DNA from: Parasitella parasitica
Taxonomy: Eukaryota; Mucoromycota; Mucoromycetes; Mucorales; Mucoraceae
Length of the DNA stretch: 64,000 bases
Assembly: GCA_025201805.1 (NCBI GenBank)
Contig: MU619264.1
Coordinates: forward strand, 171,002 to 235,001
Direction of reading: 5' to 3'
The notes under the pieces are model-generated. The model ran no database searches, was not told the DNA's origin, and worked only from the letters and a program-made list of their open reading frames with translations. The translations under genes and the position numbers were made by a program. Numbering within the stretch: the stretch's first letter is position 1; the number at the start of each line of letters is the position of its first letter. Below, piece by piece: positions 2,717 through 3,479 of the stretch.

Positions 2717-3479
2717 ATGTCTCAACAACAGCAAGTGGACATTGGCGATTTAGATTTGTCCTCTCTTCAGCAAGTCAAAACTCAATTAGAAGAGGTTTAT
2801 ATCGGATCAATAAATGAGAGATGATCGAATTTGAATGTTAAAACGAACAAATAGGAATTAAACCATTTGACTCAATCGTATAACAAACTTAAGGGCGTTC
2901 AAGGACGATTCAAAGACTGTGTTGACAGTGTTGATTCACTGAAAGCGGAGGAGGCTGACGGTAAGTTTGTCCACGCAACGTACGGCGTGAAGAAGCAGAT
3001 TTCTGACGCGTTCACTAATAGATAAGACTATTCTTGTACCCCTCACATCATCTATATCCTTTTTTTATTTCATTAATTAACAGCCACTAATAATATGACA
3101 GCGTGTATTATATAACATGTCCTTAACCTATATCACACCTCTATGTCCCAGGTAAATTAAGCAATGTTAGCAAGGTCATTGTAGATGTCGGTACTGGCTA
3201 TTACGTTGAAAAGGTAATCCGCCTTGATGAACATGCAAATACTAATCACTAAAATACATGGAATCACAGTCTGTTTTGGACGCTGCAAAGTTTTATAATG
3301 ACAAGGTTGGCTATGTTAAGAAAAACCTCAGCACGCTTGAGAAAACCATTACAGACAAACAAAGCACGTTGAGAGGTAACTTCTGAGGAGCTTTAGACGC
3401 TAAGAACGCTTATACTAAATGATTGCATGCAGCCATTGTCAATGTTATGCAGGATAAAATACAAAAGGAACAAAAGTAG
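2717..3479 (+). CDS. GIM5: Prefoldin subunit 5 (GIM5/PFD5), with a U12-type intron
   Basis: Alpha-type subunit of the prefoldin hexamer, which hands unfolded actin and tubulin to the CCT chaperonin in the cytosol. Six exons: 2717-2794, 2855-2960, 3022-3053, 3139-3213, 3270-3375 and 3433-3479, total 147 residues, normal for the family. The conserved core is clear: [15 protein letters not shown] and then [13 protein letters not shown], flanked by N- and C-terminal coiled coils. The junction of exons 3 and 4 falls inside TSS/LYVPG and can only be made with an AT-AC intron (3054-3138), described separately. Intron 1 has a weak donor, GTTTAT. All other introns are GT-AG. The exons are too short to show as long open frames, so automatic callers may miss this gene. 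Confidence 0.9.
3054..3138 (+). other. U12-type (minor spliceosome) AT-AC intron in prefoldin 5
   Basis: The intron starts ATATCCTTT, an exact match to the U12 5' splice site consensus, and ends CACAC with terminal AC. A branch site GTCCTTAAC at 3119-3127 matches 8 of 9 positions of the U12 consensus TTCCTTAAC, with 12 nt from the branch A to the exon, inside the 10-16 nt window expected for this class. No GT donor exists that would keep the conserved TSS/LYVPG sequence, and reading through meets an in-frame TAA. All of this is directly visible in the sequence. Confidence 0.9.

Follow-up and report, generated by a model that had tools for sequence, protein, structure and literature searches.

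The prefoldin subunit 5 (PFD5) gene of Parasitella parasitica occupies positions 2717-3479 (+) of the window, by which we mean the whole 64,000-nt stretch of DNA analysed here, and consists of six exons and five introns. Four of the introns are short (56-61 nt) and have GT-AG borders, and the third is predicted to be an AT-AC intron of the U12 type. The features of the gene are as follows:

2717..2794, + strand: exon 1 of the gene model, with the ATG at 2717
2795..2854, + strand: intron 1, GT-AG, 60 nt, phase 0
2855..2960, + strand: exon 2 of the gene model
2961..3021, + strand: intron 2, GT-AG, 61 nt, phase 1
3022..3053, + strand: exon 3, just 32 nt, encoding 11 residues with the first codon split
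3054..3138, + strand: intron 3, predicted U12-type AT-AC, 85 nt, phase 0
3054..3062, + strand: U12-type 5' splice site ATATCCTTT, whose TCCTTT is able to pair with AAAGGA of U6atac
3119..3127, + strand: putative branch site GTCCTTAAC, with the probable branch A at 3126, able to pair with GTAAGGA of U12
3137..3138, + strand: 3' splice site AC of intron 3
3139..3213, + strand: exon 4, which begins LYVPGKL
3214..3269, + strand: intron 4, GT-AG, 56 nt, phase 0
3270..3375, + strand: exon 5 of the gene model
3376..3432, + strand: intron 5, GT-AG, 57 nt, phase 1
3433..3479, + strand: exon 6, stop codon included

The very small exon 3 is thus flanked by one GT-AG intron and one AT-AC intron. U12-type introns of the AT-AC subtype have a 5' splice site reading (A/G)TATCCTT and a branch site near TTCCTTAAC, located about 10-20 nt before the 3' end. 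All three sequence features of the subtype are present in PFD5 intron 3, namely the donor, the branch site at the proper spacing, and an AC end that restores the reading frame. The branch site has 8/9 letters of TTCCTTAAC, the intron ends ...CACAC at 3138, 12 nt beyond the presumed branch A at 3126, and the exons on either side read TSS | LYVPGKL in phase 0. The initial annotation had described a perfect U12 donor, an 8/9 branch match, a branch-to-end distance of 12 nt and an AC end, and each was found again, with ATATCCTTT at 3054 and GTCCTTAAC at 3119-3127. TATCCTT followed at intron-like spacing by TCCTTRAC occurs only once in the window, in this very intron, while shuffled windows contained on average 0.02 such donor-branch pairs, with one or more pairs in 2 of 100 shuffles. 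Within 200 nt of the window's four other copies of ATATCCTT and its one GTATCCTT, at most 6 or 7 of the nine branch letters could be matched.

Once all introns are removed, the AT-AC intron included, the gene encodes a protein of 147 amino acids that is identical over all 147 residues to the public P. parasitica protein P0001. The product matches the prefoldin alpha family both in Pfam (Prefoldin, PF02996, 99.3 bits, residues 24-144) and in the NCBI model TIGR00293 (105.9 bits against a cut-off of 53.9), and it aligns without a gap at the junction to the solved PFD5 chain 7wu7_5, which we take to be the human PFD5 chain and which reads LVPLTSS|MYVPGKL there. With intron 2 kept, there are 14 in-frame GT-AG, GC-AG or AT-AC border pairs, among them a single GT-AG pair (3036-3174) and no GC-AG pair. 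If the intron-2 donor is fixed instead, two in-frame GT-AG models that skip exon 3 become available (2961-3151 and 2961-3184). The 3036-3174 model deletes the conserved core, as do both exon-skipping models, and of the two models scored against Pfam Prefoldin the 3036-3174 version reached 59.0 bits as opposed to the 99.3 bits of the AT-AC version. The claims that splicing restores the TSS/LYVPGKL core, and that no GT-AG alternative does so, therefore both hold: the first agrees with the phase-0 model, the Pfam score, the gapless alignment to the PFD5 chain and P0001, and the second with the loss of TSSLYVPGKL in all three in-frame GT-AG alternatives tried.

The PFD5 models of related organisms bear on the same question. 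We examined 120 listed matches of 900 in the database, of which 53 were Mucoromycotina by name or rank and 67 were others. Among the matches listed, exactly the segment around intron 3 is missing or garbled in 24/53 Mucoromycotina models and in 0/67 of the others (Fisher p 7e-11, on the assumption of independent models, which does not hold). The 53 rows include four Umbelopsis and P0013, placed by rank, all of which are intact at the intron site; without them, 24/48 of the models listed are broken, these 48 rows being presumably Mucorales by taxonomy. The count of 24 leaves out P0088, which a regular expression had classified as broken and which is intact by eye (TLIPLTSSLYVPG).

The broken models fall into several kinds. 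Eleven of the 24 lack exon 3 and continue at GKL, the outcome expected from use of the AG in CCCAG|GT, two resemble the 3036-3174 intron, two join DKTIL directly to LSDVEK or LSNVEK, and nine contain what appears to be a leaked intron tail. The residue preceding LYVPG in these tails is Tyr eight times and His once. Such residues are expected since a phase-0 intron ending in AC gives a codon NAC, although NAT would encode them as well, whereas Lys, Gln or Glu would be expected from an AG end. Three of the nine tails (Mucor plumbeus, Mucor saturninus and Choanephora cucurbitarum) carry FLN or VLN four codons upstream of the junction, in agreement with an in-frame TTCCTTAAC/GTCCTTAAC branch site; four others are too short to contain a branch site, and the two long tails of P0048 and P0062 show no in-frame branch site. 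For six species (P. parasitica, Mucor lusitanicus, Helicostylum pulchrum, Thamnidium elegans, Choanephora cucurbitarum and Rhizopus microsporus), an intact PFD5 record exists next to a broken one, so that the annotation rather than the genes appears to be at fault. The two P. parasitica records, P0001 (correctly spliced) and P0031 (which skips exon 3), differ in PFD5 by about 11% over the aligned residues; their assemblies may therefore come from distinct strains or species.

On the basis of these protein models, the best reading is that an AT-AC intron is probably present at the same place of PFD5 in many Mucorales, and the comparison with other Mucoromycota that had been proposed for this gene fits such a shared intron, in both the broken models and the leaked tails. 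The prediction that gene callers restricted to GT-AG would break the gene stands for 24 of the 53 Mucoromycotina models, but P. parasitica P0001, apparently from this same assembly, is already correct in public. The same models could be read in another way, as traces of a major spliceosome that removes a GT-AG intron with other borders, i.e., 3036-3174, or 2961-3151 with exon 3 skipped, since both are in frame and their equivalents are what the 11 skipping models and the two 3036-3174-like models resemble. However, these borders delete a core that is conserved in solved PFD5 chains, lower the Pfam score to 59.0 bits in the case of 3036-3174, and leave the donor and the branch match unexplained, which makes this explanation highly improbable.

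If the AT-AC intron is genuine, the minor spliceosome should have left its components in the genome. In the 30.7-Mb assembly (232 contigs), Rfam models gave one good match each for U6atac (64.5 bits), U12 (49.1) and U4atac (47.9); with cut-offs of 33, 53 and 53, respectively, U6atac is above its cut-off, and U12 and U4atac are just below theirs. None of the three gave a match above the cut-off in 14 control genomes, and weak control matches, with E up to 1, were seen for U6atac in 8/14 genomes and for U4atac in 1/14. The U6atac search returned three further weak matches, one of them the U6 gene, a full-length U6 snRNA match (85 bits) at L004 1476-1590 on contig C31. The GTAAGGA region of U12 is intact and can pair with TCCTTAAC, and the GAAAGGAGAG region of U6atac is intact and can pair with the donor, both pairings being short. 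U4atac and U6atac form a duplex of 18 base pairs, interrupted by a single bulge, at -26.9 kcal/mol, a value that none of 1000 shuffles reached, and this duplex includes a U6atac C (u in the Rfam consensus) that is matched by a G in U4atac. The last stem of U12 has 12 nt compared to 43 in the Rfam model, and the second half of U6atac is divergent by eye.

Less was recovered of the other components. No credible U11 gene was obtained with the Rfam model, for which 39 of 2584 first-look candidates were scored. A U11 5'-end motif, allowing up to three mismatches, gave 22 matches in the genome and 30 for the control; one of the 22 has an Sm-like site within 200 nt, which is too close (offset 26). 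The U11-48K zinc finger (25 positions) gave one partial match with E 0.7, below the cut-off, in a search where a prokaryote control passed the cut-off, and the CENATAC/CCDC84, SNRNP25-type ubiquitin and SCNM1 families had no match in the genome, nor in any control. The initial annotation had proposed a working minor spliceosome, to be judged by the four minor-specific snRNAs and by proteins of the U11-48K type. This proposal is supported, short of proof, by U12, U4atac and U6atac and by minor-type motifs in excess genome-wide; U11 was not found in our searches, which were insensitive. On the protein side there is the sub-cut-off U11-48K match, and the silence of the CENATAC, SNRNP25 and SCNM1 searches is shared by the controls. 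The total absence of minor-spliceosome components, which would speak against the proposal, is not what the U6atac, U12 and U4atac matches indicate.

Taken on its sequence, the segment 3054-3138 is almost certainly a genuine minor-spliceosome (U12-type) AT-AC intron of PFD5. What can be read directly in the genome are the splicing signals, the protein core that splicing restores, and the genes of the partner snRNAs; expression of the snRNAs and splicing of the intron in vivo are what we infer. In the proposed mechanism, the 5' site would be recognised by U6atac and the branch site by U12, in each case through base pairing, and the minor spliceosome would then ligate exon 3 (32 nt) to exon 4, in phase 0. 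Full-length PFD5 would depend on minor splicing because the ninth codon of the retained intron is a stop.

Two explanations that accept the AT-AC borders have to be weighed against this reading. The spliceosome in charge cannot be told from AT-AC ends alone, and the intron might be removed by the major (U2-type) machinery. However, U2-type AT-AC introns have ATAAGT-like donors, whereas this intron has a full U12-type donor and branch site in a genome with U12, U4atac and U6atac genes. Although U2-type AT-AC introns are described in humans (PMC8280824), we consider one at this site barely conceivable. The second explanation is vestigial machinery, in which the snRNA genes and the intron remain, splicing works poorly, and most PFD5 is intron-retained or mis-spliced. 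It draws on the failure of our admittedly insensitive searches to find U11 and minor-specific proteins, on doubts in print about the atrophied U12 and divergent U6atac of Lichtheimia (PMC4133162), and on Apophysomyces, without U12 or U4atac found (PMC5604411). However, the strict motifs and the U4atac/U6atac duplex have been kept, and intron retention would truncate a conserved protein, so that vestigial splicing is very unlikely.

The relatives invoked here allow a closer comparison of the snRNAs. In Lichtheimia corymbifera, stem III of U12 is described as atrophied, U4atac as not found and U11 as found (PMC4133162). Lichtheimia and Parasitella are alike in the short last stem of U12 and the divergent second half of U6atac. 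They differ in that Parasitella has a U4atac that pairs well with U6atac, and in that U11 was found in Lichtheimia and not in Parasitella, where our searches were insensitive (PMC4133162). For Apophysomyces assemblies, no U4atac or U12 is reported (PMC5604411), which speaks against complete conservation of the machinery across the order.

PFD5 does not seem to be the only gene with such an intron. The strict pattern TATCCTT-(26 to 86 nt)-TCCTTRAC, whose limited length makes the counts a lower bound, had 18 matches in the genome and 1 for the reversed control. TAT was preceded by A in 13 matches, by G in one, and by C and T in two each, a skew that was not built in because the pattern treats A and G alike. 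Three doubtful A-type matches were left out (L016, which is short, and L017 and L023, which lack a suitable 3' end), and ten candidates were spliced, i.e., the nine A-type matches other than PFD5 and the single G-type one, with acceptor and frame chosen by eye among the open options. The peptides were searched against Pfam, and two also against solved structures. The following candidate AT-AC introns lie in genes resembling known families:

L010: Alg6/8 glucosyltransferase-like
L011: inositol polyphosphate kinase-like
L019: PP2A methylesterase-like
L020: TBC1D20-like
L022: RNB exonuclease-like, by our own reading a Dis3-type exonuclease
L024: Dcp2-like

Homology extends across the predicted junction in five of the ten (Alg6/8, RNB, Dcp2, PPME1 and TBC1D20). 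The alignment there has no net gap for Alg6/8 and Dcp2 (Pfam) and is gapless for TBC1D20 (solved structure), while PPME1 shows a gap of two residues close to the junction and RNB has net insertions. L007, L011 and L014 have family matches restricted to one side of the junction, and L015, the single G-type match, and L021 have no family support in Pfam. Without the three doubtful A-type matches and L015, the ratio becomes 10 A to 0 G; in the chosen frames, seven of these ten A-type introns are in phase 1, two in phase 0 and one in phase 2.

Two looser patterns were also run. TATCCTY ... TTCCTTRAY gave 77 matches and 4 for the control, but about 60 were, by eye, copies of a dispersed repeat, which made the pattern unsuitable for counting introns. 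The repeat contains about 84 conserved nt, TATCCTCGATTTTGACC...CATTCCTTGAT (e.g., L048, L049, L052 and L053, at about 1501-1584), with a further copy outside the window, but on the contig that holds it, at C28:256058-256141. The second pattern, TATCCTTT ... CCTTRAY, gave 34 matches and 8 for the control, with A before TAT in 22, G in 5, T in 4 and C in 3. The frequency of G is similar to those of C and T, so these relaxed matches give no sign of an excess of GT-type minor introns, and at least one G match among them, L087, looks like a possible intron.

Minor introns in Mucorales are already known, and the PFD5 intron of P. parasitica is an added example. Phycomyces blakesleeanus and Rhizopus oryzae belong to the same order as P. 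parasitica. Like Parasitella, they have U12-type AT-AC introns in print, and minor snRNAs are marked present in them (PMC2846911). Based on ESTs, the AT-AC:GT-AG ratio was 9:8 by one scoring method and 8:12 by the other in Phycomyces, and 1:2 and 1:3 in Rhizopus, in contrast to the 13 A : 1 G among strict-motif matches in Parasitella (PMC2846911). Prefoldin is absent from the text of that paper. Among the matches listed for openly licensed PMC papers, we found none on a PFD5 AT-AC intron, and one listed paper combining prefoldin, U12-type intron and AT-AC has prefoldin in its reference list only. Beyond the order, Rhizophagus irregularis and Basidiobolus meristosporus likewise retain minor introns, with 205 and 249 predicted, respectively, as opposed to the 18 strict-pattern matches of Parasitella, 13 of them A-type, which are a lower bound; phase 1 is the commonest in Rhizophagus, as it is among the A-type introns of Parasitella (PMC10639083). 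Mucor lusitanicus and Rhizopus microsporus are among the species of the same pan-eukaryotic survey (PMC10639083).

The A:G ratio of 13:1 differs from the 9:8 of Phycomyces with a Fisher p of 0.02, in a comparison of a strict pattern with EST-based introns. With small numbers and some doubtful matches, the strong A-type skew of the minor introns in P. parasitica is only suggestive. Nor would such a skew be without precedent, as 77% AT-AC among minor introns has already been reported for Blastocystis (PMC10639083). An end state of this kind might be expected if GT-AG minor introns are readily converted to major ones and AT-AC introns cannot be. A tentative extension, which we hold to be somewhat less probable than its opposite, is that the surviving minor introns are almost purely AT-AC, the GT-AG ones having been lost or converted to major introns and the AT-AC ones, among them that of PFD5, being trapped by the poor recognition of AT-AC ends by the major spliceosome, so that a handful in core genes would keep the whole second spliceosome alive.

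The AT-AC intron would account for the wrong PFD5 models of Mucoromycotina (24/53 among the matches listed), which suggests that the annotation of Mucorales should allow AT-AC introns. Located in a housekeeping chaperone gene, apparently common to a fungal order and part of a small, AT-AC-skewed set, the PFD5 intron offers a clean, small case for why minor spliceosomes persist.
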